The notes: generated by a model from the letters alone, not told the origin. Positions 8,093 through 63,575 are shown, numbered from the stretch's first letter. The stretch is 64,000 nt of DNA from Natronomonas gomsonensis (GCF_024300825.1 NZ_CP101323.1:1488001-1552000); one strand, 5' to 3'. Numbers and translations: made by a program.

Positions 8093-8524
8093 ATGGCGAT
8101 TCAGTTCCCAAGCGACGGAGACGCCTGGATTTCAGAGTACGGCGAGTTGCTCAACGACAACGACGACTACGACAACGCCAGCGAGGGCTGGGGCGACGGC
8201 TTCAACGGTGATTTCCTCTTCGTCGTCGAACCGGACGACGCCTACGACGGCGAGGAGGTGTACTTCTTCCTCGGATTGGTGAACGGCGAGTGTACGGACG
8301 CCTACGAGGTCGAAGACCCCGAAGAGGAGGACTACGGCTTCGTCTTCCGTGGCCCCTACTCCAACTGGGTTCGACTGTTCGAGGGCGAACTCGGCCCCGT
8401 CGACGGGATGATGTCCGGGGAGTTCGAAATCGAGGGCGACATGCAGAAAGTACTGCAGTACAGCGAGGCCGCCGTCGAGATGACCGAAACGGGCCGGGAC
8501 ATCGACACCGACTTCGAGTACTGA
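8093..8524 (+). CDS. SCP2-type sterol/lipid-carrier domain protein
   Basis: 143 residues from the ATG at 8093 (MAIQFPSDGDAWISEYGELL). A GCTTAAACC box at about 8029-8037 sits upstream. The acidic chain, with WGDGFNGDFLFVVEPD in the middle and a C-terminal DMQKVLQYSEAAVEMTETGR, fits the SCP2 fold, a hydrophobic pocket used to carry or bind lipids or acyl-CoAs. The ligand in haloarchaea is not known. The gene is convergent with the flavoprotein gene that ends five bases past its stop. Confidence 0.75.
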   Translation: MAIQFPSDGDAWISEYGELLNDNDDYDNASEGWGDGFNGDFLFVVEPDDAYDGEEVYFFLGLVNGECTDAYEVEDPEEEDYGFVFRGPYSNWVRLFEGELGPVDGMMSGEFEIEGDMQKVLQYSEAAVEMTETGRDIDTDFEY

Positions 8525-8529
8525 GTTCG

Positions 8530-9294: not shown

Positions 9295-9348
9295 ACCCGG
9301 CCGTTTTCATCCACCCCCTACAAACGCCCCGGTTCGGACCGGGGGACG

Positions 9349-9356
9349 GTTTAAGC
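9349..9356 (+). promoter_or_regulatory. TATA box of the ArsA-type ATPase gene
   Basis: GTTTAAGC is centred about 27 bases before the GTG start at 9379, a spacing that indicates a leaderless mRNA and supports that start. Confidence 0.6.
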
Positions 9357-9378
9357 CGACGGCGCCGTACAAGCGCAC

Positions 9379-10314: not shown

Positions 10315-10354
10315 TCGGGCCAACGCTTACCACATCGCCGCCCTAACGAGGGGT

Positions 10355-10855
10355 GTGGACACCGTCGAGGTCACGACCGTCGTCTATCTCCCGCCGGAAG
10401 AGGTCTACGAGTTCCTGCTCGGCTTCCAAAGCTACGCGGAGTACTCCGAACATCTCACCGGAGTCAGGCAGTTCGGGGACGGTGAACCGGGGACCGAGTA
10501 CGAACTCGACTTCTCGTGGTGGAAACTCACCTACACCGCACGCTCCCGCGTCACCGACGTCGACCCGCCGAACCGCATCGACTGGCACATCATCAAGGAC
10601 ATCGACGCCGTCGGCCAGTGGCTCGTCGAACCCCACGCAAGCGGGGAGGGAACGGAGGTGACGATGCGCATCAGATACGCGCCGGATTCCGCCAACGGAA
10701 ACGCGTTGAACCTGCCGCGGTTCGTCTCGCTGGACTGGGTCGTCGACAAGATAACGCCGAAGGTGAAGTCGGAGGCCGAACGCGTCGTCCGACGCATCGT
10801 CGCCGACCTCGAAGGCGATCACCGGAACGTGGAACTAGAAATCGAAACGTCCTGA
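10355..10855 (+). CDS. SRPBCC/START-like lipid or ligand-binding protein
   Basis: 166 residues, GTG start at 10355. The pattern VEVTTVVYLPPEEVYEFLL at the N-terminus and a long C-terminal helix (VKSEAERVVRRIVADL) are typical of the SRPBCC fold (polyketide cyclase/CoxG-like), a deep hydrophobic pocket with a closing helix. Such proteins bind small hydrophobic ligands or help assemble oxidoreductases. It follows the ATPase gene by 40 bases on the same strand and has its own weak CGCTTACC box. The ligand cannot be inferred. Confidence 0.82.
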   Translation: MDTVEVTTVVYLPPEEVYEFLLGFQSYAEYSEHLTGVRQFGDGEPGTEYELDFSWWKLTYTARSRVTDVDPPNRIDWHIIKDIDAVGQWLVEPHASGEGTEVTMRIRYAPDSANGNALNLPRFVSLDWVVDKITPKVKSEAERVVRRIVADLEGDHRNVELEIETS

Positions 10856-10880
10856 AGACACCACCGTTCGCTCGCGGTGG

Positions 10881-11498
10881 TTATTCCTCGTAGTCTCCTC
10901 CATATTTCATGAAGAAGTAGCCGAGTCCGAGCGTCGTCGCCAGCCCGATGAACGTCGCGACAGTCAGCGCCAACGCGCTGTCGGGAATGATGATGGCTGG
11001 CCCTTCGCTGCCGCCGACCTCGATGGTCGAGACATCGTCACCGACGGCGATGCCACCTCGCATGCCTTGCGGTTCGTGAGGAATACAGCGGTACTCCGTG
11101 ATACCAGCGTCCTCTTCGGTGAACTCGTACTCGTAGGTCGCCCCTTCCTCGTCGACGGGGTCCCCGCTGTCGAGTGTGGCCGCTCCCTCGTTGGTGTTGA
11201 CGTTGTGGGCGCCGCCTTCGCCGGTCCACTCCCACGTTATCGTCGTTCCGGGCGAAATCCACACCGTCGCGGGGTCGAACGCCAGTCCGTTGTCGCCCGC
11301 GCCGACGCTAATCGTCAGTTCCTCCTGTCCGCGGGCGTCCTGAACGCCGTCCTCCGAGTAGAGGTTCGCTTCGCTGAGATACCCGCTGAACTCGGGAACC
11401 TCCGTCTGTGCGGCAGCCGTCCCCGCGGCGGCAGCAACGGAGGCCGTCCCCGCCGCTGCCGTCATGAACCCACGACGGCTCATGTCGTTCGTGCTCAT
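10881..11498 (-). CDS. halocyanin (blue copper protein) with C-terminal membrane anchor
   Basis: 205 residues from the ATG at 11498; an upstream start at 11537 would bury the signal. A Tat signal (SRRGFMTAAAG) exports the folded protein. The cupredoxin domain shows all four type 1 copper ligands: His98 in GGAHNVN, Cys138 and His141 in YRCIPHEPQG, and Met146. A single C-terminal helix (ALALTVATFIGLATTLGLGYFF) anchors it outside the membrane. It should carry electrons between respiratory complexes. It is a close paralogue of the halocyanin of the bc operon at 18924-19589 but stands alone here. Confidence 0.93.
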   Translation of the reverse strand: MSTNDMSRRGFMTAAAGTASVAAAAGTAAAQTEVPEFSGYLSEANLYSEDGVQDARGQEELTISVGAGDNGLAFDPATVWISPGTTITWEWTGEGGAHNVNTNEGAATLDSGDPVDEEGATYEYEFTEEDAGITEYRCIPHEPQGMRGGIAVGDDVSTIEVGGSEGPAIIIPDSALALTVATFIGLATTLGLGYFFMKYGGDYEE

Positions 11499-11539
11499 AC
11501 CGACCTTTTGCCACCACCCCGTACTGAATCTGTTCATTC

Positions 11540-11690
11540 GCGCCGACCTTTTTGCACGGACCGGCAGAGCCGGTCCGGCAAAAACGTCGACGAAAAAGAC
11601 ACATCGGGCCTCCTTACAGTCGGCCCTCGGTCCTGCGCGCCAAAGGCGCGCAGTGAACCGCTCGCTCCCTACGGTCGCTCTCGGATGCTA
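11540..11690 (+). repeat. dispersed intergenic hairpin element, copy B
   Basis: TTTTTGCACG (11549-11558) and GGCAAAAACGT (11577-11587) flank a perfect GGACCGGC-AGA-GCCGGTCC hairpin. Next comes GACGAAAAAGACACATCGGG from 11589, matching copy A at 2394. The 35 bases at 11655-11689 recur in reverse orientation inside copy C (28841-28875) with one mismatch. Other hairpins include GCGCGCCAAAGGCGCGC. No gene is seen between 11499 and 11748. Confidence 0.65.
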
Positions 11691-11748
11691 CACTAAACCA
11701 ATCAAAGACCGGGACTCTTGTGGTCCGGGATAGCTTCAGCTCAGTCGG

Positions 11749-12798
11749 CTACAGCGTGTAGTCGTGACTCCCGTCCTCGCTATCGAGGAACGCGACGAGG
11801 AGGTCGACGACCGCATCCACGTCGTCGACGTGGACGCTTTCGGTCGGCGTGTGGAGGTACCGCGTCGGCACTGAGATGGCTCCTGCCGGCGTCGCCCCGG
11901 AGGTCCGCTGGAGGCCACCGGTGTCGGTACCGCCGGCCGGTAATACCTCGAACTGGTGGTCGATGTCGCCGTCTTCGGCGACCGAACGGAGCCGACGGTG
12001 GACCTTGTGGTTCGTGATGACGCTGCCGTCTTTGAGTTTGATGCCGGCCCCCTCGCCGAGTCGCGTCACCTGCTCGCCCGGTTCGAAGCCGGGCACGTCG
12101 TTTGCGACGGTCGTATCGAGGGCGACGACGAGGTCCGGGTCAAGGTCGACGCCGAGCGCCTCCGCGCCCCGGAGGCCGACTTCCTCCTGTGTCGTCGCCG
12201 CGAAGTGGACGGTCACATCGGGGGCTTCGAGACGGCGGGCAGCCTCCAGCATCGCGAACACGGACACGCGGTTGTCAAGCGCCTTGCCGGTGACGAACTC
12301 GCCGACGCGTTCGGTGGTCTGGTCGATGGTCACGAGGTCGCCGACGGAGACGCGCTCGGAGACGGCCTCGGCGTCAAGGCCCAAATCGACGTGGATGTCG
12401 TCGACATCGGGCTGTTTCTCGCGCTCCTCATCGGACAGCGTGTGTGGCGGCACCGATCCGATGAGGCCCGGAACGTCGCCGTCGTCGGTGTGGACGGTGA
12501 CGCGCTGGGCGCGGAGGATTCTGGGGTCCCACCCACCGAGAGCGTCGAGTTCGAGGAAGCCGTCGTCGTCGACGTGACGAACCATGAAGCCGATTTCGTC
12601 CATGTGGGCCGCCACGACCACGTCGTACTCTCCCGACCCGACACTGCCGACGAGGTTGCCCATCGCATCGGAGCGAATCCGGTCGACGTGCGGTTCGAGT
12701 TCCTCGCGAACGAGCGCGCGCACGCGGTCCTCGTATCCCGGGACGCCGCGCGCTTCGGTAAGTGCGACGAGCAGGTCGTCGTCGAAATCGTCCGTCAT
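11749..12798 (-). CDS. M42-family zinc aminopeptidase (TET/endoglucanase-type)
   Basis: 349 residues from the ATG at 12798; the longer reading to 13020 overlaps the next gene and has an arginine-rich extension. Metal-binding and catalytic motifs of the M42 family are present: AAHMDEIGF (His and bridging Asp region), a TTQEEVG pair of glutamates, and PAGGTDTGGLQ near the C-terminus. M42 enzymes form large tetrahedral complexes that trim peptides in the cytoplasm. A CGCTTAAATC box about 27 bases upstream indicates a leaderless transcript. Genomes often label this family cellulase or endoglucanase, which is misleading. Confidence 0.92.
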   Translation of the reverse strand: MTDDFDDDLLVALTEARGVPGYEDRVRALVREELEPHVDRIRSDAMGNLVGSVGSGEYDVVVAAHMDEIGFMVRHVDDDGFLELDALGGWDPRILRAQRVTVHTDDGDVPGLIGSVPPHTLSDEEREKQPDVDDIHVDLGLDAEAVSERVSVGDLVTIDQTTERVGEFVTGKALDNRVSVFAMLEAARRLEAPDVTVHFAATTQEEVGLRGAEALGVDLDPDLVVALDTTVANDVPGFEPGEQVTRLGEGAGIKLKDGSVITNHKVHRRLRSVAEDGDIDHQFEVLPAGGTDTGGLQRTSGATPAGAISVPTRYLHTPTESVHVDDVDAVVDLLVAFLDSEDGSHDYTL

Positions 12799-12820
12799 GC
12801 CTTCGAATCGGGGCGCGAGC

Positions 12821-12830
12821 GATTTAAGCG
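12821..12830 (-). promoter_or_regulatory. TATA box of the M42 peptidase gene
   Basis: Minus-strand GATTTAAGCG/CGCTTAAATC is centred about 27 bases before the ATG at 12798 and supports the short start. Confidence 0.55.
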
Positions 12831-12845
12831 GCCAGATTCCGCCGT

Positions 12846-13562
12846 TCAAAAGAACCGCGCCGATTCGGATACGACCACCGTCTCGAAGGCGTCGGTCGTC
12901 GACAGCGTGACGGGTTCGCCGGCGGCGACGGTGCGCTCGGTTCGGCCGTCTGCCAGCAGTTCGACTGGCGTCTCGTCGCGCTCGACGGAGAGGGTCACCT
13001 CTTCCAGCGGCAACACCCACTGATCGGCGTCAGTCGCGAAGGGCGCGAGCGGAACGACGGACACCACGTCGGTTCCGGTCGCGACCACCGGCCCGCCCGC
13101 GGCGCTGTTGTAGCCGACGCTTCCGGCGGGCGTCGAGGCGACGACGCCGTCGGCCCGGAACCTGGCGACGCTCTCGCCACCACACCGAACCGAGAACTCC
13201 GAAATTCGGGCCGGTTCGGCGGCTACGAGCGTCACGTCGAACAGCGCGCGGACGCCGTCGAAGGCGCGCTGGGCGGAGACGACCGGATGGCGTTCGGTTC
13301 GATAGGCACCGTCGAGGACGCGTTCGAGCGCCGGTTCGAGGTCCGACGAGGGAACCGAGCGAACGCCACTACCCGCCTCGACCGGGAGGACGGGAACGCC
13401 GACCTCCGCTCGCAGCAGGTCGACGACCGCGGCTTCGCCGTCCGCGACCACCACCTCGATTCCGTCGAGGTCACTCGCCGCCCCGACGACCGGGTCGCCG
13501 CCGGCTGCTTCGACGGCCGCCGCGAACGTCTCGTCACCGACGACACCGACGCGCTGACTCAT
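12846..13562 (-). CDS. NAD kinase-like protein with altered catalytic loop
   Basis: 238 residues. The second half has ADGVVASTPAGSVGYNSAAG, equivalent to the NAD-binding segment of ATP-NAD kinases (GVLVSTPTGSTAY type). The N-terminal nucleotide loop, normally GGDGT, reads VADGEA at residues 39-44, so the aspartate is kept but the glycines and threonine are lost. It is also shorter than standard NAD kinases (about 270-300). It may be a divergent NAD kinase or a non-catalytic relative. It lies upstream of the M42 gene on the same strand. Confidence 0.75.
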   Translation of the reverse strand: MSQRVGVVGDETFAAAVEAAGGDPVVGAASDLDGIEVVVADGEAAVVDLLRAEVGVPVLPVEAGSGVRSVPSSDLEPALERVLDGAYRTERHPVVSAQRAFDGVRALFDVTLVAAEPARISEFSVRCGGESVARFRADGVVASTPAGSVGYNSAAGGPVVATGTDVVSVVPLAPFATDADQWVLPLEEVTLSVERDETPVELLADGRTERTVAAGEPVTLSTTDAFETVVVSESARFF

Positions 13563-13654
13563 CTGCCCGAAGGGACGGCCGGGGAGGGCAAAAAGGCCCC
13601 GTCCGCGACCGGCGCACGGGAGGGTTTTTGTCCCGCCACCGCAACGGGGGAGAT

Positions 13655-14716
13655 ATGCGTAGCGTACTCGACGAGTGGCGGCCGATAGTCGACGAGACCA
13701 TCGAGTCGCTGCTTCCCCGCGAGGTCGACGAGGCGTACCTCACGGATTTCTTCGGCGCGGCGAGTTTCGCTTACGACCCGACGGCGATACAGAACGCCCT
13801 CGCCGACCCCATCTGGGATTTGCTGGACCGCGGCGGCAAGCGCTGGCGGGCCGTCCTCTTTCTGCTGTTCGTCGATGCATTCGGCGAGGACCCCGAGGCA
13901 TTCCTCGAGTACGCCACGATCCCCGAAGTGTTGCACAACGGGACTATCATCGTCGACGATGTCGAGGACGGTGCGACCCACCGCCGGGGCAGTCCCGCAC
14001 TCCACCACACCCACGGGACTGACGTGGCGCTCAACGCCGGCAATGCGATGTACTTCCTGCCGCTGAAGGTCATCACGCGCGACCCGGCGAACCTGTCCCC
14101 CGAAACCCGACTGGCCGCCTACGAGATGCTGACGTTCGAACTCAATCGGACGCATCTCGGCCAGGGAATGGACATCTGCTGGCACAACGAAAAGGAGGTC
14201 CGCATCACCGAACCCGAGTATCTCGAAATGTGTGCCTGCAAGACCGGCTGTCTCGGGCGCATCGTCGCTCGGTTGGCCGCCATCGTCACCGAAAACCCCG
14301 ACGCCGAGGACGCCGCCGCGAACTACGCCGAGGACATGGCTGTCGCTTTCCAAATCGCCGACGACGTACTCGACGTCGAACACGCGATGGAAGAAGGCGG
14401 CTCCTTCGGGAAGGGCGTCGGCAACGACATCCGCGAAGGGAAGAAGACCCTGATGGTCATCCACGCCGCCGACAACGCGTCCCCGGAAGACGTGGCGCGC
14501 CTCGAGGAACTGCTGTGGGCCGAAGAGAACACCGACGAGGAAGTCATGGAAGCCATCGACATCCTCGAATCCGCCGGCAGCGTCGACTACGCACGCGGTG
14601 TCGCCGAAGACCTCTCGGCGGAGTCGAAAGCCCACCTCGACGGTGTCGACCTCGAAGCCGGGCCGGAACGGAAGCTCCGGTCGTTCGCTGAGTTCGTCGT
14701 CGAGCGGGAACGATAG
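13655..14716 (+). CDS. idsA: trans-polyprenyl diphosphate synthase (geranylgeranyl/farnesylgeranyl type)
   Basis: 353 residues from the ATG at 13655. It makes C20 or C25 prenyl diphosphates for archaeal ether lipids or quinones. The first aspartate-rich motif DDVED is at residues 101-105, preceded by GGKRWR, and the second, DDVLD, at 236-240. The KKTL motif for the second substrate lies shortly after. GGTTTTTGTC about 25-30 bases upstream may be the promoter. Chain length depends on residues before the first motif and cannot be read with certainty here; haloarchaea usually hold several paralogues. Confidence 0.9.
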   Translation: MRSVLDEWRPIVDETIESLLPREVDEAYLTDFFGAASFAYDPTAIQNALADPIWDLLDRGGKRWRAVLFLLFVDAFGEDPEAFLEYATIPEVLHNGTIIVDDVEDGATHRRGSPALHHTHGTDVALNAGNAMYFLPLKVITRDPANLSPETRLAAYEMLTFELNRTHLGQGMDICWHNEKEVRITEPEYLEMCACKTGCLGRIVARLAAIVTENPDAEDAAANYAEDMAVAFQIADDVLDVEHAMEEGGSFGKGVGNDIREGKKTLMVIHAADNASPEDVARLEELLWAEENTDEEVMEAIDILESAGSVDYARGVAEDLSAESKAHLDGVDLEAGPERKLRSFAEFVVERER

Positions 14717-25193: not shown

Positions 25194-28100
25194 CTACAGA
25201 GAGACGCCGACCGCGACGACGTTCGCCGCCGGCGCGAAGGTTGCAGAGTGCTCCTCGCCGTCGATCATCGCCAGCACTTCGGCGGGGCCGACCTCGTAGG
25301 CGTTGGTGTCCTGGGGACTGTCGGGTGATTCGATGAAGTAGGTGAACGTCTTCGAGTCGCCGTCGCCGTCCGGCAAGTCCTCGGCGTCGAAGGTGCCGAA
25401 GGAGACGACGCCGTCGCCGTCTTTCTCGCCATCACCGAACGATTCGAGCAGTTCCCACTCCGGCGGGAACGAATCCCGGATTTCGACCGACTCGGCGTCG
25501 GCGTCGACCGAATCGACGGTGACGGTGACGCGGTTTGCGCGTCCGCCGGGCGTCACCGACGCATCCACGTTCCGACTCCCGGACGCGGCGAGAGTCGCAC
25601 CGACGCCGCCGGGCTCGACGCTCCAGTCGTCGACACGGCCGTACTCGCGTTTCGTCTCGCCCGTCTCACGAATCTGTTTAAACCCGAGTGCCGAGGTGAA
25701 CACGATGTTCCCGAGGAAGGTCACCGCGTAGTTCTGCAGGCCGAAGGGATGGAGGTTCGCCTGCGTCGCCGGCGGGAGCAGCGAAGAGATGTAGTGGATT
25801 CCGCGGCCGCTGTCTGTGCTCTCGGTGACCGAGCCGGTCGCTACCAGCCCGTTGGTTCGCGCTGCGACGGAGGCGACACCCTGGTTGGCCGCCGAGAGGA
25901 AGGCAGACTCATCGAGGAGGTCCATCGGTGCCGAACCGCTAACTTGGTAGCCGAGCGGCTGGACCTTCCAGAGTTGGTCCTGGATGGGTCGGACGCTGTC
26001 GTCGAACAGCGGATGGTCGAGGTTCTTGTCGCTGTACTCGGCGACGTTGAGGAACTGCCGCTGGACGTTCGACTCGCCGATGGCAGACCCATCGAACAGG
26101 TCGTTGTCGAGTTCCGGCAGGACGTAGGTTCCCGTGTCGGTGACGACGAGGTTGCCACCCGAGTCGACGAAGTCGTCGAGGGCGCCGGTGTAGGTGTCGT
26201 CGGTGACGCCCTCGGCGATGTCGGCGTTCGCGTTGACGTTCCCCGAGACGCCCTCGGAGATGCGGTCGGTCGGCGAGACGTAGTCGTGGATGAGGACCGC
26301 GTGGTCGTACTCGGCGAGTGCTCCCTGTTTTACCTCCTCGACGGTGACCGGATCGACGGTACCATCGTCGATGAACGTCCGCAGGGTTCCGCGCTTCTCG
26401 GCGGACTGGTAGTCCTCGAAGAACTGGAACGGCGTCACGTCGTAGGCAATCTGTTCGTATCCCTCGTTGCCCCAGTTGTCGACACTCTTGGGGTCGGGGT
26501 TGCCCTGAGCGGCCAGCGTCCACCGCTGCATCTCGACGAGTTGGCCGGCCTCCTGGTAGTTGGCGATGCGGAGCGTCCACGTGCCGGGTTCGGGGTCGCT
26601 GACGGTGAACTCCGGTAAGCCACAGCACTTGCCGCCGACACGCTCGTCGGTGACGCCCTCGAACTCGTACACCGTCTCGCCGGACGGCGAGAGGAGTTCG
26701 AGGTCCGCGATGACGTCCTGTCCGTGGAGGTGGACGCCCATGCTGTTGAGGTTCGTCTCCGTCACGTCGAAGGTCAACTCGGTTCGGTCGGCCGCGAGTT
26801 CGGTCTCCTCGGTCGTATCGTAGAACTGGGTTTCGGGGTCGAAACTGAGTTGACTCTCCGTCCGTCGCAGGGCGTCGTCGGCACTGCCCGGTTCGCCCGT
26901 CGTGATGTAGGCAACCGACTCGCCGCCGGTCTCGGTTTCGGTGCTGAACTGCTCTTCGGTCGTCGGCGTGTCGGTGTTGTTGACCGCGAACTGCGTGATG
27001 GTTCGGATGGCTGCCCGGTAGCCAGTGACCTCCATCTCGAACAACTCGGGGTTGTAGACGTTGCCACCGAGCATGTGGTTGAACGACATCTCGAAGTCCA
27101 GCGTCGTCATGTCCAGCCCGATGGGTTCGGGGTGAGCCATCCAATCGAGGAACGCCCCCGAGACCGTGTAATCGAGGGTGTCGTAGATGGTGGCGTAGTC
27201 GAATGCGCTCTCCGGGACGACGCCGAACAACACCGGAGATATCTGTTCGTCGCCGATGAGGTCGACACGGGCCTGTCCGACGGTCTCCCAGGTGTCGAGG
27301 GCCTCCGCCAGCGTGTCGTTGATGTTGAGACACATCTCGTAGACCTCATGCAGTTCACGGGTGTTGAACTGGTCTTGGCTGATGAGCCCCAACACGAAGT
27401 TGTTGAACACGGGGCCGCCGTGGAGGTCCGCGCCGTAGTTGAGGTTCTCGTAGCCCTGGAAGTAGTCGACGAGCGCCTTCGCGTCCGGAACCTTCTCGTT
27501 GACGAAGGTGGGTTCCTCGCCCTCGTAGTTGGCGGGTGCCGCCGGGTAGTGTGAGGGGTTGATGTAACCGACGGCCGGATACTGTCGGTTCGTGTCGAAC
27601 ACCTCGGCGTTGCCGCGTTCGTACAGCGGTGCGGCCGGTGCCCGTGGAAGTCCCGTCCCCGGACCGCCGACCTGCCATCCGGAGTCGTACTGGGGGTTCC
27701 GAACCGCCCAGCCGTCGGGGTTGACGAAACCGATGATGACGACCACATCGTCGAGTAGCGGTTCGAGTTTCGCGTCGCTTCCGGGCACGTCCGGCTCGGA
27801 GCCGCGGGCGGCGTTCTCCAACACCCGAGCGCCAGTCTCGCGGCCCGCCATCTCCAGCCCGTGCAGCGAACACGAGAAGAACACCTTCTCTTTGTCCTCG
27901 AAGTCCGTCGTCGAATCGAAGTTCGTCAACTCGACGACGTACATCCCCTTCGGGTCGGGGCGGTCGGTGATGGTGTTGGTGTGGCCCGGCGACTGACCGA
28001 CGTTCTTCACTCGGATTCGGTCGGGGTAGCGCTCTTCGAGCACGCCGAGGCCGTCTTTCAGTTGCTCGAAACCGATGTAGTCGACCGACCGCCGCGGTTC

Positions 28101-28505
28101 CGGAAAGACGCCGAGCGGGTAGTAACCAATTCGCCAGAAGGGGTTCGACCCCGGCGCGAACTGGAACTCCGATGCCGACGGCAACTCCGCGAGCGTCGAG
28201 GCCTGTGTCGTCGTCAACTGGGCGTAGCCGGCCGGCTCCGGCGACGTGATGGTCTCCGTCTCGACATCGAGGAGCCCCTCCATCGCTGTCGGGCCGCTGG
28301 CGTCCGAAAACCGGACCAGCGTCGGTACCTCGTAGTCCTCGGGCGTGTGGTTCAGTACGTACTGATACTCCGTCGAGAACGCCGAGGCGCTTGCGTCGGC
28401 CGTCGCGTTCCCGGGAAGCGTCAGGGCGGCACCGGTCGCCGCCGACAGTTGCATGAACCGCCGGCGCGACACCGGCGAACCGTCGAATGGGTCGTCGTTG
28501 CTCAT
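25194..28505 (-). CDS. large secreted M14-family zinc carboxypeptidase with beta-rich C-terminal regions
   Basis: 1103 residues. A Tat signal (VSRRRFMQLSAATGA) exports it. The M14 catalytic domain spans roughly residues 140-560. Its features are zinc ligands HGLE at 215-218 and His362 (ADLHGGP), DTNRQYP with the substrate-binding Asn-Arg near 306-307, and GFVNPDGW before it. After about residue 600 come a PPC/P-domain-like beta region (with GKCCGLPEF), a long segment resembling a glutamine-amidotransferase-like fold, and a C-terminal immunoglobulin-like part. The protein is about three times the size of a normal carboxypeptidase. It should digest peptides outside the cell. Confidence 0.88.
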   Translation of the reverse strand: MSNDDPFDGSPVSRRRFMQLSAATGAALTLPGNATADASASAFSTEYQYVLNHTPEDYEVPTLVRFSDASGPTAMEGLLDVETETITSPEPAGYAQLTTTQASTLAELPSASEFQFAPGSNPFWRIGYYPLGVFPEPRRSVDYIGFEQLKDGLGVLEERYPDRIRVKNVGQSPGHTNTITDRPDPKGMYVVELTNFDSTTDFEDKEKVFFSCSLHGLEMAGRETGARVLENAARGSEPDVPGSDAKLEPLLDDVVVIIGFVNPDGWAVRNPQYDSGWQVGGPGTGLPRAPAAPLYERGNAEVFDTNRQYPAVGYINPSHYPAAPANYEGEEPTFVNEKVPDAKALVDYFQGYENLNYGADLHGGPVFNNFVLGLISQDQFNTRELHEVYEMCLNINDTLAEALDTWETVGQARVDLIGDEQISPVLFGVVPESAFDYATIYDTLDYTVSGAFLDWMAHPEPIGLDMTTLDFEMSFNHMLGGNVYNPELFEMEVTGYRAAIRTITQFAVNNTDTPTTEEQFSTETETGGESVAYITTGEPGSADDALRRTESQLSFDPETQFYDTTEETELAADRTELTFDVTETNLNSMGVHLHGQDVIADLELLSPSGETVYEFEGVTDERVGGKCCGLPEFTVSDPEPGTWTLRIANYQEAGQLVEMQRWTLAAQGNPDPKSVDNWGNEGYEQIAYDVTPFQFFEDYQSAEKRGTLRTFIDDGTVDPVTVEEVKQGALAEYDHAVLIHDYVSPTDRISEGVSGNVNANADIAEGVTDDTYTGALDDFVDSGGNLVVTDTGTYVLPELDNDLFDGSAIGESNVQRQFLNVAEYSDKNLDHPLFDDSVRPIQDQLWKVQPLGYQVSGSAPMDLLDESAFLSAANQGVASVAARTNGLVATGSVTESTDSGRGIHYISSLLPPATQANLHPFGLQNYAVTFLGNIVFTSALGFKQIRETGETKREYGRVDDWSVEPGGVGATLAASGSRNVDASVTPGGRANRVTVTVDSVDADAESVEIRDSFPPEWELLESFGDGEKDGDGVVSFGTFDAEDLPDGDGDSKTFTYFIESPDSPQDTNAYEVGPAEVLAMIDGEEHSATFAPAANVVAVGVSL

Positions 28506-54944: not shown

Positions 54945-56891
54945 ATGGCGAGCAACAAGATTCTCGGTATCGACCTCGGTACCACCAACTCGGCGTTTGC
55001 GGTGATGGAGGGTGGGGACCCCGAAATCATCGTCAACGGCGAGGGTGAGCGGACGACGCCATCCGTCGTCGCCTTCACCGACGACGGCGAGCGACTGGTC
55101 GGCAAGCCCGCGAAGAACCAGGCCGTCCAGAACCCCGAGCGGACCATCCAGTCCATCAAGCGGCACATGGGCGAAGACGACTACACCGTCGAAATCGAAG
55201 GCGACGACTACTCGCCGGAGCAGATTTCGGCGATGATTCTGCAGAAAATCAAACGCGACGCCGAGGAGTACCTCGGCGACGACATCGAGAAGGCCGTCAT
55301 CACGGTGCCGGCGTACTTCAACGACAAACAGCGACAGGCCACGAAGGACGCCGGCGAAATCGCCGGCTTCGAGGTCGACCGCATCGTCAACGAGCCGACC
55401 GCAGCCGCGATGGCCTACGGCCTCGACGACGAGTCCGACCAGACCGTCCTCGTGTACGACCTCGGGGGCGGCACCTTCGACGTGTCCATCCTCGATTTGG
55501 GCGGCGGCGTCTACGAGGTCGTCGCCACGAACGGCGACAACGACCTCGGCGGCGACGACTGGGACGAGGCCATCATCGACTACCTCGCTGACTCCTTCGA
55601 GGAGGAGAACGGCATCGACCTCCGAGAGGACCGACAGGCACTCCAACGGCTGAAGGACGCCGCCGAGGAGGCCAAAATCGAACTCTCCTCGCGGAAGGAG
55701 ACCACCATCAACCTTCCCTTCATCGCCGCGACCGACGAGGGGCCGCTCAACCTCGAAGAGAAGATGACGCGCGCGAAGTTCGAGTCGCTGACGAGCGACC
55801 TCGTCGAACGGACCGTCGGCCCGACCGAGCAGGCGCTCTCCGACGCCGGCTACTCGAAGGGCGACATCGACGAGGTCATCCTCGTCGGTGGGTCCACGCG
55901 GATGCCGCAGGTCCAAGAGAAGGTCGAGGAGATGACCGGCCAAGAGCCGAAGAAGAACGTCAACCCCGACGAGGCCGTCGCGCTGGGTGCGGCGATTCAG
56001 GGTGGCGTCCTCTCCGGCGACGTCGACGACATCGTCCTGCTGGACGTGACGCCGCTTTCGCTCGGTATCGAGGTCAAGGGCGGCCTCTTCGAGCGCCTCA
56101 TCGACAAGAACACGACCATCCCGACCGAGGAGTCAAAAATCTTCACGACCGCGGCGGACAACCAGACCTCCGTCAACGTCCGGGTCTTCCAGGGTGAGCG
56201 TGAAATCGCCGAGGAGAACGAACTGCTCGGCGCCTTCCAGTTGACCGGCATCCCGCCGGCCCCCGCCGGAACGCCGCAAATCGAGGTGTCGTTCAACATC
56301 GACGAAAACGGCATCGTCAACGTCTCCGCGGAGGATCAGGGCTCCGGCAACTCCGAGGAAATCACCATCGAGGGCGGCGTCGGCCTCTCCGACGAGGAAA
56401 TCGAGGAGATGCAGGAGGAAGCCGAGGCTCACGCCGAGGAAGACCAGCAGCGACGGGCGTTCGTCGAGGCACGCAACGAGGCCGAATCGTCCATCCAGCG
56501 CGCCGAGACGCTGCTAGAGGAGAACGACGAGGAACTCGACGACGACCTCCAGTCCGACATCGAAGCCGAAATCGAACGCGTCGAGGAAGCCCTCGAGGAG
56601 TACACCGAGGTCGACAGCGACGAACTCGACGAGGCCTCCGAGGCGCTTGAATCCGCCACCGAGAGCCTCTCGGAGCAACTGCAGGAAATCGGCAAGCAGA
56701 TGTACGAACAACAGGCCGCAGGCGGTGCTGCAGGCGCTGGCGGCCCCGGCGGCGCGGCGGGCGCCGGCGGCATGGGCGGCATGGGCGGTGCCGGCCCCGG
56801 TGCGGGTGCTGGTCCCGGTGGCGCCGGCGATGCCGACGGCGAGGAGTACGTCGACGCCGACTTCGAGGACGTCGACGAAGACGAGGAGTAA
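54945..56891 (+). CDS. dnaK: DnaK/Hsp70 chaperone
   Basis: 648 residues. The ATPase domain opens [20 protein letters not shown] and keeps [18 protein letters not shown] and [14 protein letters not shown]; the substrate-binding domain starts near 380 with [16 protein letters not shown]. It ends with a Gly/Ala/Met-rich linker (about residues 585-630) and an acidic tail ([10 protein letters not shown]). Length is normal. GrpE lies upstream, but DnaJ is separated from it by 5.5 kb of unrelated genes. Confidence 0.97.
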
Positions 56892-56985: not shown

Positions 56986-57207
56986 CTACTCGCCGACGTG
57001 GTCGCCGGCGTGTGACAGCGTCAACTCTTCGGCCTCGTAGATGTTGATGAGTTCGGTGATGAGTTCGTCGTAGGATTCGTCCTCGATGCGGAGGTTGTCG
57101 AGGCGCTCGAGCGTCTCCCGGTCGAGACGTACTTCAGGTATACCTGTCGGTTCGCGGCACGGCTTGAAAAGTTCCGGGGACGGGGGCACCTCGTCCTGTA
57201 GACTCAC
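56986..57207 (-). CDS. small antitoxin-like or DNA-binding protein (DUF7557-type)
   Basis: 73 residues from the GTG at 57207, which has AGAGGA just before it; a longer start at 57306 overlaps the divergent gene. The core RLDRETLERLDNLRIEDESY followed by ELITELINIYEAEELTL matches a haloarchaeal family of about 50-residue proteins that I recall as DUF7557, reminiscent of VapB/RelB antitoxins. No toxin gene lies beside it. The N-terminal 20 residues may not be translated. Confidence 0.65.
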   Translation of the reverse strand: MSLQDEVPPSPELFKPCREPTGIPEVRLDRETLERLDNLRIEDESYDELITELINIYEAEELTLSHAGDHVGE

Positions 57208-57281
57208 TCCTCTTGGTGGGAGCGCGTCAGCGGACGGTTGCCAAAGAACTAAATCTCCTCCGTGTCGGGTGAATACTGTCC

Positions 57282-57962
57282 ATGACACGACTGTACGGAG
57301 ACGCAAAGCGGGTTGCCGTTGTGGTTGTCGTCGCGACTCTGTTCTCCTCTGTCTTCGCTGGGGTGGCCGCCGCCGACATCGAAGTCAGCGGCGAGTTCGA
57401 CGGAACCCTCGCCGGCTACGGCGAAGACGCCGAGACGCCGAACGAGATAACCGTCGACGGGCAGTTCACCGTCGAGGGCGAAACCGCGGTCGACCCCGAA
57501 ATCGTCATCGAAGGGACGGACGCGGCCGTCCTCGACACCGACTCGATAGAGGTGTTCGTCGAGGGGAGCCAGTCCATTTCATTCGACCGCCAGTACCGCG
57601 CCGGCGAGGTTCGGTTGACGCCTGCAGAGGGCGAAATCCCCGCCGGGACGACCATCCGCGTTGAGTTCGCCACCTACTTCACCGGCGGCACCACCGCCGA
57701 CACCATCGACGCCGGAACGGCGACGGTGAGCTACGAGACCGCGGGCGGCACGCCCGGCGAATCGTCGTTCACCGCCCAAGCCAACGCGTCGAACAGCCCC
57801 GACAACCGAATCGAGTCCCTTCAGTCAGAGATAGCGGACGGAACCCGGACCAGCCTCGTCATGCAGGTACTCGCCGGTATCGGCGCTTTGGCCATCGTCG
57901 TCGCCGTCATCGGCGGCGCCGTCGTCATCTATCGTCGACGCAACTCCGGCCCCGACTGGTAG
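57282..57962 (+). CDS. signal-peptide protein with single C-terminal membrane anchor
   Basis: 226 residues. A signal peptide (VAVVVVVATLFSSVFAGVAA) is followed by a beta-rich extracellular domain with repeated short strands (EVSGEFDGTLAGYGEDAE, VDGQFTVEGETAVDPE), then a C-terminal helix (VLAGIGALAIVVAVIGGAVVIY) and a basic stop (RRRNS). So it is anchored with its domain outside. It converges on the tubulin-like gene, ending nine bases from that stop. A GAACTAAATC box lies upstream. No family recognised. Confidence 0.7.
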   Translation: MTRLYGDAKRVAVVVVVATLFSSVFAGVAAADIEVSGEFDGTLAGYGEDAETPNEITVDGQFTVEGETAVDPEIVIEGTDAAVLDTDSIEVFVEGSQSISFDRQYRAGEVRLTPAEGEIPAGTTIRVEFATYFTGGTTADTIDAGTATVSYETAGGTPGESSFTAQANASNSPDNRIESLQSEIADGTRTSLVMQVLAGIGALAIVVAVIGGAVVIYRRRNSGPDW

Positions 57963-57971
57963 TCGAGCGGT

Positions 57972-60683
57972 TCAGTCCGCGGTCGCTTCCTCGTCGACGA
58001 ACTCTATTTTGATTCCCTCGCGGTCCTCGAACTCGCGGGCGTACTCCTCGAGCAGTTCCTCCCAGGAGACGTTGCCGGCGAGCCACTGGCGCTTCTTCTC
58101 GGAGGCGGGCGAGAGTTCCTGGACGGCGTTCCAGCCGAGTTGGACCCCATCGAGTGCTTGCTTCCACCCGCGGAACCCGATGGCACCGTCTTCGTAGTTA
58201 TCCCAGAGGACGCCCTGATAGAGGTAGCTGACGACGCCGTCGCGGCTGATGAACTCGTGTTTCAGTTCGCCCTCGTCGGCGGCGCCGGTTTCGAGTTGGA
58301 CGTACTCCAGTTTCGGTTCCGGCGGCATCGGCAACTGAATGGTCTTGTCGGTCCCGAACACCGACCGAACATCGCGGCCGTACCACTCGGGATAGGCGAA
58401 CGCCAGTCGGTAGTCGTCCCAGTGTTGGGCGACGAGGTCGTCGAGGCCGCCGTCGTCGGCGTAGGAGTCCAGTTCCTGATACAGTCGCAACACGTCGACT
58501 GGACCGGTTCGGACGTAGGCGACGAACTTGACGCGATGGGAGTCGTAGCTGTCGTCCGTGTAGCGGTTGTACCCCGAACTCGCCGTCGAAACACGCTCGA
58601 AGGAGATGGCATCCTCGTTGTCGTCGTCGTAGACGATGTACATGTCCGTCTCTATCATCCCGAGACTCTGGAAGTAATTGAGAGCGTCGTCGGGCGCGTC
58701 GTCCTCGTCGACGTCGAGAACGAGTCGCGGTTCCTTCTGGAAACACCGCTCGTAGCGCCGGGCGATAGCCTCGAGGAAGTCGTCGCGGTCGACGTATCCC
58801 TCGTCGAGATACGACTCGATATCCGTGAGGTCCGTCTCCAGTTTTTCGAGCGTCACCTCCTCGAGGGCCTCGGGTTCGAGGGGCATCCGTGCGATGCGAA
58901 GCCCCGATTGGTCGGGGTCGGTGAGTTCACGACGAAGCGACTTGAGGTCGTCTCGGGCGTCGCCGAGTTCGCGTTTCTTGTGTTTGAGTCGACTCTCGAT
59001 TTCGGCACGCTGGTCGACGATGCCGTCGCTGAGGTCGTTGAGTCCGTCGTAGTCGTCCTCGACCTCTCGGAGCCGTTCGAGTGCCTCCTTCAGGTTCGAC
59101 AGTCGACTGTTGAGTTTCTCCTCGCGGCCTTTGATCCCGGGCTTGCCGTCCCAGAAGGACTCCTCGACCTCCTCGAGTTCGACCTTGGTGTCCTCGATTC
59201 GGCCCCGGAGGAAGTCGAAGAGGTTTCGCGCCTTCTGGTTGACCCGAGAAACGTCGCCGAACTCGGGGTGTGAGGAGAGTTCGAAGTGTTTCCACATCTC
59301 CGAAACCGTCTCCTCGCGTTTCTCGCGAACTTTCGGCTCTTGCTCGTCGAGTGCGGACTCGATTTCGTCGAGCGCGAAGGGGACGAACCGCAGGTCGTGT
59401 TCGGCCTCGACTTGGTCGAGCACCGACGCGATGTCCTCGCGGGTCCGGTTGACCATGTTGACGCCGCCGCCGAGGCTGTTGTCGATTATCTCACGGACTT
59501 CGCGTTTGGTCTCGCTCGCCTCCTCGGGGTCCAGTTGCTCGAAGACCACATCCGAGTTCCGCACGAGGTGTTCGATGGCGTCGAGGTCCGAGTCCGTCGC
59601 TTCCAGCGAGGAGCGACCCGCATACAGCAGGCTCTCCAGCGCCTCGATTTCGGATTTCGTCTCACAGTAGATTCGGAGCGTCTCGTGGGGAATCTCGACT
59701 TCCGTTTCGACGACGGTTCCGACCCGGGGGTCGGTGTCGGAGACGCCGGAGACGTTCTCCATGTCGTCGCCGTGTTTCGCCATCGTGTAGATGGATTCGG
59801 CGACGGTGTTGTCTATCATCTGGTCGTAGCGTTCGAGGCCGGCGGAGGACTGTTCACCCTCGATTTTGTCCTCGTTGACGCCGACGAGGAAGTAGTCGTT
59901 GAACGGCTGGGTGTCGAACTCGAAGGCGTTCTCCTCGAGGGCGGCGTCGATAGCGTCGCTCGTCGAGGTGTCCCCGTCGGGGTCGTGTCGAGAGTGAATC
60001 GGGAGCCGGAGGCTGTCGTTGGCGTCGGCGTTGAGCAGGTGTTCGAGGTCACGCAGTGCGGCGTAACTGTTGGCGTAGTACCGCCCGTCGTCGCCCGGGA
60101 GCTGTTTGATGTCCCGACCGAACTCGAACTCGGGGACGACGCCGAACCCGCCGAGGTAGGCGAACATGTTGTTCCGGTTGCGGATGTTCTCGGCGAGGTG
60201 GTGGAGAATGCCGGTCAGAATCGGGAACGTCCCGCTTCCGGTCCCCCCGCCGAGGGAGTTCACAAGCAGGATGTTGATGTGTTTGTTCGAAGACGTGAGC
60301 GCGGTCTGGTGGTCCTGTCGGAACCGGTTGACGTTACGCTGAATCGTCTTGAACACGTCGGAGAAACTCGGCTCCTCGGGATTGTCGAACTTGTACCGAC
60401 CGACGGGGCGTTGGCGCTCCGCGCCCTTCGCTCCGAACCGCATGCTGTTGGTCAGAAACGGGAACTCCTCGCGGTGCGTTCCGACCAGCGTGTCGGGGGT
60501 CTTCAGATAGAGGTTCTTCTCTATCGAGGAGCTGTTGAGCTCGCTCATGTTGGAGTCGACAATCAGATAGTCGAAGTACGCCGACTCCTCTTCCGGGACG
60601 TGTCGTTTGAGGGTTTCGAGAACCTCGATTCCGGCCTGTCCCACCCCGATGAGAAACGTCGGTGACGGCTCTTTGCCAGCCAT
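57972..60683 (-). CDS. long tubulin/FtsZ-superfamily protein (Tubulin_2-like) with central coiled coil
   Basis: 903 residues. The N-terminal GTPase fold has LIGVGQAGIEVLET (residues 11-24), VDSNMSEL, and the tubulin signature LGGGTGSG at 144-151, then YLGGFGVVPEF and YANSYAALRDLEHLL. From about residue 480 to 600 there is a long charged coiled coil (LNSRLSNLKEALERLREVED and more), and a C-terminal part of about 300 residues without recognisable motifs. This differs from FtsZ and CetZ (about 350-400 residues). It should bind GTP and perhaps polymerise. An ATTAAATAA box 26 bases upstream gives a leaderless mRNA. Confidence 0.88.
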   Translation of the reverse strand: MAGKEPSPTFLIGVGQAGIEVLETLKRHVPEEESAYFDYLIVDSNMSELNSSSIEKNLYLKTPDTLVGTHREEFPFLTNSMRFGAKGAERQRPVGRYKFDNPEEPSFSDVFKTIQRNVNRFRQDHQTALTSSNKHINILLVNSLGGGTGSGTFPILTGILHHLAENIRNRNNMFAYLGGFGVVPEFEFGRDIKQLPGDDGRYYANSYAALRDLEHLLNADANDSLRLPIHSRHDPDGDTSTSDAIDAALEENAFEFDTQPFNDYFLVGVNEDKIEGEQSSAGLERYDQMIDNTVAESIYTMAKHGDDMENVSGVSDTDPRVGTVVETEVEIPHETLRIYCETKSEIEALESLLYAGRSSLEATDSDLDAIEHLVRNSDVVFEQLDPEEASETKREVREIIDNSLGGGVNMVNRTREDIASVLDQVEAEHDLRFVPFALDEIESALDEQEPKVREKREETVSEMWKHFELSSHPEFGDVSRVNQKARNLFDFLRGRIEDTKVELEEVEESFWDGKPGIKGREEKLNSRLSNLKEALERLREVEDDYDGLNDLSDGIVDQRAEIESRLKHKKRELGDARDDLKSLRRELTDPDQSGLRIARMPLEPEALEEVTLEKLETDLTDIESYLDEGYVDRDDFLEAIARRYERCFQKEPRLVLDVDEDDAPDDALNYFQSLGMIETDMYIVYDDDNEDAISFERVSTASSGYNRYTDDSYDSHRVKFVAYVRTGPVDVLRLYQELDSYADDGGLDDLVAQHWDDYRLAFAYPEWYGRDVRSVFGTDKTIQLPMPPEPKLEYVQLETGAADEGELKHEFISRDGVVSYLYQGVLWDNYEDGAIGFRGWKQALDGVQLGWNAVQELSPASEKKRQWLAGNVSWEELLEEYAREFEDREGIKIEFVDEEATAD

Positions 60684-60704
60684 ATTAGGCTAAACAGAAA
60701 TCAG

Positions 60705-60713
60705 TTATTTAAT
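60705..60713 (-). promoter_or_regulatory. TATA box of the tubulin-like gene
   Basis: Minus-strand ATTAAATAA is centred about 26 bases before the ATG at 60683. It lies in the 152-base gap shared with the divergent metallopeptidase-like gene. Confidence 0.6.
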
Positions 60714-60806
60714 CCCTTGGGTCACCTCAAAACCGAGCGACGGAGTCCGACTGGACGCGTCGGGTCGACCACCAAGTGACCGAACGGCCGGCCCGCCGGC
60801 GAGACG

Positions 60807-60814
60807 TTTTTATT
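60807..60814 (+). promoter_or_regulatory. TATA box of the metallopeptidase-like gene
   Basis: TTTTTATT is centred about 25 bases before the GTG at 60836, which fixes that start and implies a leaderless mRNA. Confidence 0.6.
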
Positions 60815-60835
60815 GCTGGCCGAATCAGTCGGCGT

Positions 60836-62386
60836 GTGAACCGACGCGGGGAACAGGGTGCGACGAATCGAAACGCCGCGGACATCGTCCAGGCGACGAT
60901 GGTTCGTCTCGATACCGCCACGGAGGGCACCGTCGAACTCGACATCGAGTACGACTTCGCCGACCGGCTGACGGGCTGTAGCGTCGCCATCCCCTCGACG
61001 CTCGCCGTCGACGGCACCCGAGGCTTTCGGACGAACGGACGCCAGTACGACTGGGACGGGGCGACGAACCCCGCGCGGTTGAGCGGGAGTCTCTCGGCCG
61101 ACACCGGCGGACCGGGAACCTACCGGTACGTCGACGCCGGCGATTGGGCCATCGTACAGCGCCCACAACTGAGCATCGCCTACCAGTACCGAGGTGCCGA
61201 GCCGGCGTTGCAGCGACGCTACGACGTCGACGGTGAGGGCGTCACCAGTTCCGACGGTTCGGTGATGTACCTCGGCCCCCACGACGAGTACACCGACACC
61301 ACCGCTGGCCAGCGGTTCCGGCTCGTCGTTCCCGAGGCGGCGGCGCTCCGCCCGTCGGTCGACGCCGTGCTGTCGGCGCTGGGCGACGCCGCCGCCCGTC
61401 TCGATGTCGGCGGTCGAAACGACGAAGTCCTCGCCATCGCCGCCCCGACCGGCGTCGGATGGGGCTCTCTCGGCGTCCAAAGCGGCGCCAACGGCTTTTG
61501 GACACAGGACGACTGTCGACTCGACAACGTCAACAACACGTGGATTCACGAGTACGTCCACACGCGACAGGAGTGGGACCGCTCGGCGTCGACGAAGTGG
61601 CTCGTCGAGGCGACGACGGAGTACTACGCGTCTCTTTTCACCTACCGTCGCGGTCAGGCACCGTTCTCGGCGTTCCACGACTACGTCTCGACGAACCGGG
61701 ATTCGGGGTCGGTGCTGGTCGACCCAAAGCAGTGGACCAGCAGTCAGGCTTACTACACGAAGGGTCGTCGCGTTCTCGCCGCCCTGGACCTCGAAATCCG
61801 CGAGGCGACCGGCGGCGAGTCGACGTTCCAGGACGTGTTCCGTCGCATCAATGCCTACAACCGGCCACTCACCCACACCGCCTTCGTCGATATCGTCGCC
61901 GAGGTGGCCGGTCGACGACTCGACGACTGGCTGGACCGCTACGTCTGTGGCTCCGCTTCCCCCGAAATTCCCGACGACGAAGGCGCCTTCAAGTCGCCAT
62001 CGTCGATGTCGGGAAGCGGCGGACCGACGCCGGAACCCGAACCAGAAACTGAACCAGAACCCGAACCAGAAACTGAACCAGAACCCGAACCAGAAACTGA
62101 ACCAGAACCCGAACCAGAAACTGAACCAGAACCCGAACCAGAAACTGAACCAGCGACGATTCCGTGTCCGGTCTGTTCGACCGAGGTTTCGGAGGACCGC
62201 CAGTACTGTCCGGCCTGTGGGCAGTCACTCCACGAGCAGTGTCCGGTGTGTGGGACTGGCGTCGAAGGGGAGGTGTACTGTCCGGAGTGTGGCAGCCGCC
62301 TCGAAGAGGCCTGCCCGGTCTGTGATGCGACCCGGGTCGACGACGAGCGATTCTGTGAGCGATGCGGGCACGACTTCGAGGCGTGA
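60836..62386 (+). CDS. HExxH metallopeptidase-like protein with Pro-Glu repeat linker and three zinc ribbons
   Basis: 516 residues, GTG start chosen from promoter spacing; no signal peptide, so probably cytoplasmic. The middle has HEYVH at 238-242 and [10 protein letters not shown] from 255 with a third-ligand Glu258, the gluzincin pattern, though with 15 rather than 18 residues between. Residues 399-438 are five perfect copies of PEPEPETE. The C-terminus has six CxxC knuckles (CPVC/CPAC, CPVC/CPEC, CPVC/CERC), enough for three zinc ribbons. It diverges from the tubulin-like gene and may act with it. Substrate unknown. Confidence 0.85.
62030..62149 (+). repeat. tandem repeat, 5 x 24 bp, inside the metallopeptidase-like gene
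   Basis: A 24-bp unit (GAACCAGAAACTGAACCAGA and four more bases) is repeated five times with almost no change and encodes PEPEPETE each time. CCA and ACT codons, rare in this genome, show recent slippage expansion. Copy number may vary among strains. Confidence 0.9.
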
Positions 62387-62429: not shown

Positions 62430-63575
62430 ATGAGCGAGGACTTCTACTCGGTGCTGGGCGTCGACCGCGACGCCAGCGAAGACGAAATCAAGAGCGCATT
62501 CAGGGAGAAAGCCTCGGAGTACCATCCGGACGTTTCGGACGACCCGAACGCCGAGGAGAAGTTCAAGAAAGCCAAGAAGGCAAAGGAGGTGCTGTTGGAC
62601 GACGAGAAGCGCCAGATGTACGACCAGATGGGCCACGAGCGCTTCGAGCAGGCCGACAAGCGCGGCGCGACGGATTCGGGCGCCGGCGGCATGGGCGGTA
62701 TGGGTGGCCCGTTCGGTGGCGGCGGTGGCGGAGCAGGCGGGATGAACGACATCTTCGAGCAGTTCTTCGGCGGTGGCGGCTCTCAGTCCGGCCCCCGACA
62801 GGGTGCGGACCTGAAGACGCGGCTCACCGTCGAACTGGCGGAGGCCTACGAGGGCGTCACGAAGCAACTCACCATCACGCGCCCGGAGACGTGTCCGGAC
62901 TGTGACGGCGCGGGCCACCCGCCGGACGCCGACGCTCGCACCTGTTCGGCGTGTAACGGCCAGGGCCAGCGGACGACGGTCCGCCAGACGCCCCTGGGAC
63001 GAGTTCAGCAGACTCAGACCTGCCAGCAGTGCGACGGCGAGGGGACGATTTATTCCGAGACGTGTTCGACCTGCCGCGGCGAGGGGCAAATCCGAAACGA
63101 GACGACCCTACAGGTCGAAGTGCCCGCGGGCATCCGAAGCGGCCAGACGCTCCGGATGGAGCGGGAGGGCGCCCCCGGAGAGAACGGCGGGCCGAAGGGC
63201 GACCTGCTCGTCGAAATCGAAGTCGAGGAAGGCGAGGAGTTCGAACGCGACGGCGACGACCTCCGGTATCGACACCCCATCTCCTTCCCGCAGGCCGTCT
63301 TCGGCGACACCGTCGAAGTGCCAACGATGGACGGCACCGTCGAGATGGACGTTCCGGCCGGCACCCAAAGCGGCGAGACGTTCCGCCTACGCGATAAGGG
63401 GATGCCGCGACTCCAGCGCCGTGGCCACGGCGACCTCTACGTGAAGGTGCAAATCGTCACGCCCGACAACCTCAACGACGAACAGCGGGAGGCTCTGGAG
63501 GCCTTCGCCGAGGCTGGTGGCGAGGAGATAGACGTAGAACAGGGCTTCTTCGAGAAGTTGAAGAACTCTTTCTAG
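62430..63575 (+). CDS. dnaJ: DnaJ/Hsp40 co-chaperone
   Basis: 381 residues. The J domain has EYHPDVSDD with HPD at 32-34. A Gly/Met/Phe-rich linker ([19 protein letters not shown]) follows. Four CxxCxGxG zinc repeats (CPDCDGAGH, CSACNGQGQ, CQQCDGEG, CSTCRGEG) and the C-terminal client-binding domains come next. It stimulates DnaK. It sits 43 bases past the metallopeptidase-like gene, separated from dnaK. Confidence 0.97.
   Translation: MSEDFYSVLGVDRDASEDEIKSAFREKASEYHPDVSDDPNAEEKFKKAKKAKEVLLDDEKRQMYDQMGHERFEQADKRGATDSGAGGMGGMGGPFGGGGGGAGGMNDIFEQFFGGGGSQSGPRQGADLKTRLTVELAEAYEGVTKQLTITRPETCPDCDGAGHPPDADARTCSACNGQGQRTTVRQTPLGRVQQTQTCQQCDGEGTIYSETCSTCRGEGQIRNETTLQVEVPAGIRSGQTLRMEREGAPGENGGPKGDLLVEIEVEEGEEFERDGDDLRYRHPISFPQAVFGDTVEVPTMDGTVEMDVPAGTQSGETFRLRDKGMPRLQRRGHGDLYVKVQIVTPDNLNDEQREALEAFAEAGGEEIDVEQGFFEKLKNSF

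Follow-up and report, generated by a model that had tools for sequence, protein, structure and literature searches.

The chaperone genes dnaK and dnaJ of Natronomonas gomsonensis are separated by a stretch of DNA that holds four ORFs, and the locus raises the question of which of these genes belong together and what kind of system they might form. The first-pass annotation had placed a four-gene insert of 5.4 kb at this position, with an antitoxin-like gene, an anchored surface-type protein, a 903-residue protein of the tubulin superfamily and a divergent HExxH/zinc-ribbon protein, and had read the last two as a pair that would constitute a new cytoskeletal or defence-type module. The ORFs of this cluster were confirmed in the window (the whole 64,000-nucleotide stretch analyzed here, GCF_024300825.1 NZ_CP101323.1:1488001-1552000), and they are arranged as follows.

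54945-56891: dnaK, left flank of the cassette interval (ORF and family search)
56986..57150, minus strand: DUF7557 gene (PF24434), outside the cassette, a decaying ancestral flank
57220..62386: insert of three genes (the cassette), bordered by ancestral genes on the dnaK side and by the upstream region of dnaJ on the other
57282..57962, plus strand: F1, 226 residues, with a signal peptide, a beta-rich ectodomain, a C-terminal transmembrane segment and a short cytosolic tail
57972..60683, minus strand: 903-residue Tubulin_2 (FtsZ-like) protein (PF13809)
60684..60835: divergent region of 152 bp shared by the tubulin and peptidase genes
60836..62386, plus strand: predicted 516-residue cytosolic M61-like gluzincin with a Pro/Glu linker and three C-terminal zinc ribbons
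62430-63575: dnaJ, right flank of the cassette interval (ORF and family search)

Three of the four ORFs belong together, namely F1, the Tubulin_2 gene and the gene of the HExxH/zinc-ribbon protein. The right junction of the cassette is exact, because homology to three relatives with an empty site restarts at the peptidase stop codon, 44 bp 5' of dnaJ, leaving the short dnaJ upstream region intact; on the left, homology to N. gomsonensis YCN60 starts at about 57220, and no terminal repeats were seen when the junctions were inspected by eye. The same locus is present in N. gomsonensis YCN60 and in Natronomonas sp. CBA1123, whose tubulins are 95-96% identical to the window copy. The empty site of genomes G288 and G353 reads dnaK, DUF7557, a Rieske-type protein of 579-597 residues (named from a sequence motif, not from a family search) and dnaJ, that of G393 is similar, and in G036 and G037 dnaJ follows within about 0.6 kb past dnaK. 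In strain YCN60 the cassette is placed between the Rieske gene and dnaJ, and a whole-genome search with the YCN60 copy of that gene found nothing in the window genome.

The supposed antitoxin gene had to be removed from the inserted group. Relatives without the cassette also have the DUF7557 gene behind dnaK, intact in G288, G393 and G353, and the gene forms no part of the cassettes in other genomes. In the window its start codon has changed from ATG to ATA, in CBA1123 the gene is frameshifted and in YCN60 it is missing; it is a relic of the older flank that decays in parallel across the cassette strains, as compared at 56986-57150 of the window, L005 4784-5142 and L095. With its start lost and no toxin gene adjacent, it stands alone and does not make a toxin-antitoxin module. 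Since DUF7557 predates the insertion and decays, the inserted unit comprises three genes and about 5.2 kb, so that the insert between dnaK and dnaJ stood, but not its gene count or its length.

To what extent the chaperone setting matters can be judged from other genomes. The dnaK-dnaJ interval of Natronomonas is variable in content (a Rieske-type protein, DUF7557 and, in G393, a protein of 354 residues), and in other genera the cassette is located elsewhere, so the setting is the insertion site of the Natronomonas lineage. A functional link to DnaK/DnaJ was rejected on this ground: HSP70/GrpE neighbours occur at two distant Tubulin_2 loci (G239 and G030) and at none of the cassettes of other genera. 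A virus or plasmid origin was likewise rejected, as relatives of the peptidase were found on none of the viral contigs scanned and the plasmid records hold distant tubulin relatives only.

The recurrence of the cassette was analyzed in an even draw of 392 Halobacteria genomes from 86 genera, with genes outside the window called by a simple script. A tubulin relative at E<=1e-10 was found in 20 genomes, in seven of them at more than 200 bits, and it is in the same seven that the peptidase scored above 400 bits, the values elsewhere being at most 263 bits. Close homologues of both proteins therefore occur in identical sets of 7/392 genomes and are linked in 7/7, which upholds the pairing claimed in the annotation and passes the refuting condition set there; what had gone unnoticed is that the anchored protein F1 is a third and, as described below, more ancient partner. 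The seven carriers span five genera of two families; in each, a stretch of about 12 kb holds F1, the peptidase and one or more long tubulins, and several also have a second, shorter tubulin of another branch. The five genera shared by tubulin and peptidase among the 86 give a hypergeometric p of about 3e-8 at the genus level. When both cytosolic types of the peptidase are counted, 9/10 genomes that have a cytosolic form also have a Tubulin_2 relative vs 11/382 of the others (Fisher p 3e-12), and the genus-level value is p 6e-8, shared ancestry being handled by the genus count only.

The long tubulins of the carriers form one clade (support 100/99), and so do their peptidases (98/97). The two trees agree: in each, G270, a member of the window's own family, groups with G090, G173 and G245, which belong to another family, and the Natronomonas pair branches outside this group. 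Both trees contradict the taxonomy in the same way, and therefore the cassette has been inherited as a unit; the same pattern points to horizontal movement between distant species. All three genes are under purifying selection, with dN/dS values of 0.135 for the tubulin, 0.156 for F1 and 0.075 for the peptidase. Taken together, these results make the parts and the linkage of the three-gene cassette well supported.

The tubulin-superfamily assignment of the 903-residue protein held up, as PF13809 (Tubulin_2) matched residues 11-343 with an E of 1.8e-24 and 87.1 bits vs a cut-off of 27, and the score against PF00091 was 26.9 bits, below its cut-off of 33. The protein is organized in the following regions, all on the minus strand.

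59655..60683: FtsZ/tubulin-like GTPase domain, residues 1-343, with T1 GVGQAG and T4 GGGTGSG
58920..59393: long helical/coiled-coil region, residues 431-588 (predicted helices, SMC-like matches)
57975..58400: cassette-specific C-terminal extension, residues 762-903 (profile A4)

The GGGTGSG motif lies at residues 145-151, and the T1 and T4 glycines together with Asn205 were invariant columns in an alignment of 26 haloarchaeal Tubulin_2 proteins. Judging from this alignment and from predicted secondary structure, Asn205 would be the guanine-contacting T6 asparagine and a helix at residues 286-308 would stand in place of H7, which suggests that the Tubulin_2 branch of the window protein keeps T6-H7. 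The nucleotide-binding motifs of FtsZ and tubulin are kept, and the protein may bind GTP and possibly form filaments. The AlphaFold2 model was built from a shallow alignment and is moderately confident (pLDDT 78.9); its best PDB match was CetZ2 of Haloferax volcanii (4b45, E 2.4e-8), followed by FtsZ. Helices are predicted at residues 431-466, 481-512 and 517-588, and past this coiled coil the C-terminal part is predicted to mix helices and strands. Most other Tubulin_2 proteins stop soon past an (F)AYPE motif, whereas the long tubulins of the cassettes run about 130 residues further. This extension equals the remainder of the protein in conservation, being 38-40% identical to the window copy, and its profile A4 matched 7/392 genomes only, those with the zinc-ribbon peptidase; a search for profile similarity between the extension and the peptidase itself gave none.

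Tubulin_2 genes are also found in other surroundings. At L086 of G239 (6519-14070) and L065 of G030 (4383-11819) they are accompanied by genes for a shortened HSP70 paralogue, a GrpE-like protein and a vWA protein, and these loci resemble the bacterial systems of PMC7159879. A separate branch of Tubulin_2-like proteins of 1050-1190 residues, hardly similar to the window tubulin and probably the original FtsZl1, occurs at L158, L159, L160 and similar places in methanogens, the L158 gene adjoining a protein kinase. A third branch, of about 900 residues, occurs widely within one family (L122-L129, f16 genomes and relatives) and has its own conserved transmembrane neighbours; one neighbour of about 300 residues has a GxGxxG motif at its start, and it may bind nucleotides as a second protein of the locus.

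The anchored surface-type protein predicted earlier corresponds to F1, in which hydrophobic segments were indeed found near both ends (residues 8-33 and 189-219). F1 matched no Pfam family, and it is homologous (hhalign probability 98.1%) to the F3 proteins that adjoin other haloarchaeal Tubulin_2 genes. With a joint profile, an F1/F3 member was detected at 20/22 haloarchaeal Tubulin_2 loci and at five loci outside Halobacteria that hold related tubulins (E 3e-29 to 7e-37); the joint profile had no match at the loci of the third, ~900-residue branch, where other transmembrane genes are found. From this distribution F1 is the ancestral neighbour of the Tubulin_2 branch to which the window tubulin belongs, and the Tubulin_2 and F1/F3 pair is old, the peptidase having been added later. 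At L080 of G090 (about 10787-13095) the F1 gene ends after 135 residues, interrupted by an apparent IS200/IS605-type transposon that carries TnpA-like and TnpB-like ORFs, and the cassette may tolerate the loss of F1 in that genome.

The description of the third gene product as an HExxH/zinc-ribbon protein was also correct, since its ORF (60776/60836-62386) encodes a single HExxH, in the form HEYVH, and three zinc ribbons.

61547..61609, plus strand: HEYVH (residues 238-242) and the third zinc ligand, Glu258
62165..62365, plus strand: three CxxC-CxxC zinc ribbons, residues 444-510 (DZR, E 4e-14)

His238, Glu239, His242 and Glu258 were invariant in 29/29 aligned family members. No Pfam peptidase model matched the window protein, PF05299 (M61 proper) included, which gave 13.5 bits vs a cut-off of 22 for one secreted paralogue. 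A structure model, with pLDDT >90 for most of residues 21-380, matched in Foldseek the M61 structures 7xyo (E 1e-14) and 8j9c and a Deinococcus M1 enzyme, so that the protein is, by its modelled fold, a clan MA gluzincin of M61/M1-like type and a predicted enzyme. Its family is present in 293/392 Halobacteria genomes, and most members are predicted to be secreted; CARDB domains are frequent among these, and their GF...TM...RR end is of the kind typical for PGF-CTERM. The cassette peptidase has neither a signal peptide nor a transmembrane segment: it lacks the export signal and the anchor that most relatives carry, and zinc ribbons stand at the end. A second type predicted to be cytosolic occurs in G234, seven kb from a tubulin among kinases and a vWA gene, and also in G350 and G217 with no tubulin adjacent; no degraded tubulin was found beside the unlinked genes of the latter two. 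The cytosolic HExxH genes of G350 and G217 lie at L106 and L107, and the same spot in the congener G276 (L087) holds F3 and Tubulin_2. At L072 (8671-10647) and other loci we observed the very common secreted M61-like family (CARDB, PGF-CTERM-like end); no Pfam model reaches its cut-off for the catalytic domain of this family. Elsewhere in the window, 25194-28505 on the minus strand encodes a 1103-residue zinc carboxypeptidase (Peptidase_M14) with a Tat signal.

Both TATA boxes that had been noted in the 152-base region between the tubulin and peptidase genes were found there, and they are conserved in the window and in two other Natronomonas strains.

60705-60712, minus strand: TATA-like box TTAAATAA; the tubulin ATG follows about 26 nt downstream
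60807-60812, plus strand: TATA-like box TTTTTA, about 26 nt upstream of the GTG at 60836

An in-frame alternative ATG at 60899 is not conserved in the two other strains, and since the TTTTTA box is conserved and this ATG is not, the GTG at 60836 is the likely start of the peptidase. All complete cassettes that were examined have the peptidase gene in divergent orientation to a tubulin or F1 gene, with 126-155 bp between the two.

What might these three proteins do together? A reading that we hold about as strongly as we doubt it is that the mobile cassette encodes a membrane-tethered assembly of a tubulin-like GTPase with its own regulatory peptidase. The GTPase would assemble, probably as filaments, at the cytoplasmic face of the membrane, and F1 would tether the assembly, report the state of the surface, or both. 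The peptidase would dock on it, most likely via its zinc ribbons, the C-terminal extension of the tubulin or both, and would cleave a component or client; the target may be the tubulin C-terminus, F1 at its cytosolic tail, or some bound protein. Cleavage would in this way switch or disassemble a structure that remodels the membrane or envelope. We infer polymerization and substrate, contact from co-occurrence and cleavage from contact. Most loci with Tubulin_2 and F1 have no such peptidase, and it is therefore regarded as an accessory.

The alternative that survives best, although we consider it rather improbable, is that the tubulin is a membrane-remodelling scaffold of the FtsZl1 kind and that the peptidase serves in quality control or maturation as an ancillary enzyme, without regulating the GTPase. 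FtsZl1 was indeed proposed to lie at the centre of machines that remodel membranes and whose partners vary from lineage to lineage (PMC2875224), F1 is here the constant partner and the peptidase the variable one, and distant haloarchaeal loci carry vWA, kinase or HSP70/GrpE genes instead. Nevertheless, extension and peptidase occur strictly together, and this one-to-one match suggests that tubulin and peptidase interact directly, which argues against the alternative.

That the cassette is a conflict or defence module, with the F1 ectodomain or the GTPase as the sensor of infection, oligomerization of the GTPase, and the peptidase as effector, seems distinctly unlikely. Its patchy distribution and its transfer as a unit would fit, and the predicted GTPase-centred conflict systems of bacteria hold tubulin, HSP70/GrpE, vWA, kinases and zinc ribbons (PMC7159879), a repertoire that is echoed at some haloarchaeal Tubulin_2 loci. 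However, PADLOC gave coiled-coil-level matches only (LmuB/PbeC/JetC), with no match over a functional domain for the cassette genes and none beyond coiled-coil similarity for the sampled neighbours; the cassette has no TRAFAC GTPase or GAP1-like gene, it lies in Natronomonas in a chaperone locus and not in a defence island, and all three genes are under strong purifying selection. The defence-type label given at first thus finds no support. The reading as fortuitous neighbours, accessory genes gathered at an insertion hot spot, would suit the variable content of the Natronomonas interval, but it is extremely improbable and already contradicted by the linkage of the three families, which is seen in five genera from two families and at loci unrelated to one another, by the congruent trees and by the genome-level Fisher test.

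Returning to the regulated assembly, a more specific version of it is doubtful as a whole and joins three statements: that the peptidase processes the tubulin-like protein or its assembly, as a dedicated processing enzyme of a prokaryotic tubulin homologue; that a surface-protease family would have been brought into the cytosol for this, with zinc ribbons added; and that the result would be an independently evolved analogue of the eukaryotic metallopeptidases that trim tubulin tails. If the peptidase does act on the GTPase assembly, it would represent proteolytic control of a tubulin-family structure outside eukaryotes. The papers found report no experimental function of Tubulin_2/FtsZ-like proteins, and the locus offers three handles on it, namely a constant F1/F3 partner across Halobacteriota, a dedicated cytosolic peptidase and an extension that tracks the peptidase, in carriers that include named Natronomonas strains.

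The Tubulin_2/FtsZl1 family was described in 2010 by Makarova and Koonin, who found the T6-H7 elements of FtsZl1 proteins not recognizable, questioned their polymerization and favoured membrane remodelling (PMC2875224). The window protein is like them in its N-terminal FtsZ/tubulin-like domain with GGGTGSG, its long coiled coil and further C-terminal domain, its membrane-protein partner and its patchy distribution, so that the cassette represents a variant of a described family and not a wholly new cytoskeleton. It differs in belonging to a 700-950-residue branch with an F1/F3 partner, with barely detectable similarity to the 1050-1190-residue haloarchaeal and methanogen type (the size of the original Huta_2051), and in having no vWA, kinase or P-loop GTPase gene in the cassette but a new M61-like partner and the extension. 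A vWA protein was in the operon at the majority of FtsZl1 loci in the 2010 survey (PMC2875224); none is found in the cassette or among its neighbours, and vWA genes occur at some distant haloarchaeal loci. Among solved structures, the GTPase domain comes closest in fold to CetZ and FtsZ (CetZ2, 4b45), but the window tubulin falls below the PF00091 cut-off, carries a coiled coil and extra domains and has an accessory distribution.

The 2020 survey by Kaur et al. places bacterial tubulin proteins in predicted conflict systems (PMC7159879), whose tubulin-bearing kind was described from actinobacteria and firmicutes. Coiled-coil tubulin proteins, zinc ribbons and membrane components recur in these systems as they do in the cassette. 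In contrast, these systems are defined by a TRAFAC DO-GTPase and GAP1, which the cassette lacks, and none of its three genes encodes a P-loop GTPase by Pfam. As for the peptidase, M61 glycyl aminopeptidases and M1 aminopeptidases are its best structural matches and share the HExxH and a downstream Glu, but the cassette spacing is HExxH-x15-E and zinc ribbons replace the other C-terminal domains. The secreted haloarchaeal paralogues, mostly of 600-1000 residues, have the same peptidase domain (~35-44% identity), but with their own signal peptide, often CARDB, and a GF...TM...RR anchor, none of which is present in the cassette form. Eukaryotic MATCAP/TMCP (PMC10499314, PMC13269789) would resemble the cassette peptidase as a metallopeptidase dedicated to a tubulin-family protein, by analogy only and with no homology claimed. 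A literature search that combined tubulin with peptidase-neighbour terms, and whose reach stopped short of the supplementary tables of PMC2875224, found no such combination. In summary, the tubulin itself belongs to the known Tubulin_2/FtsZ-like group, and it is its peptidase partner and its C-terminal extension that look new.
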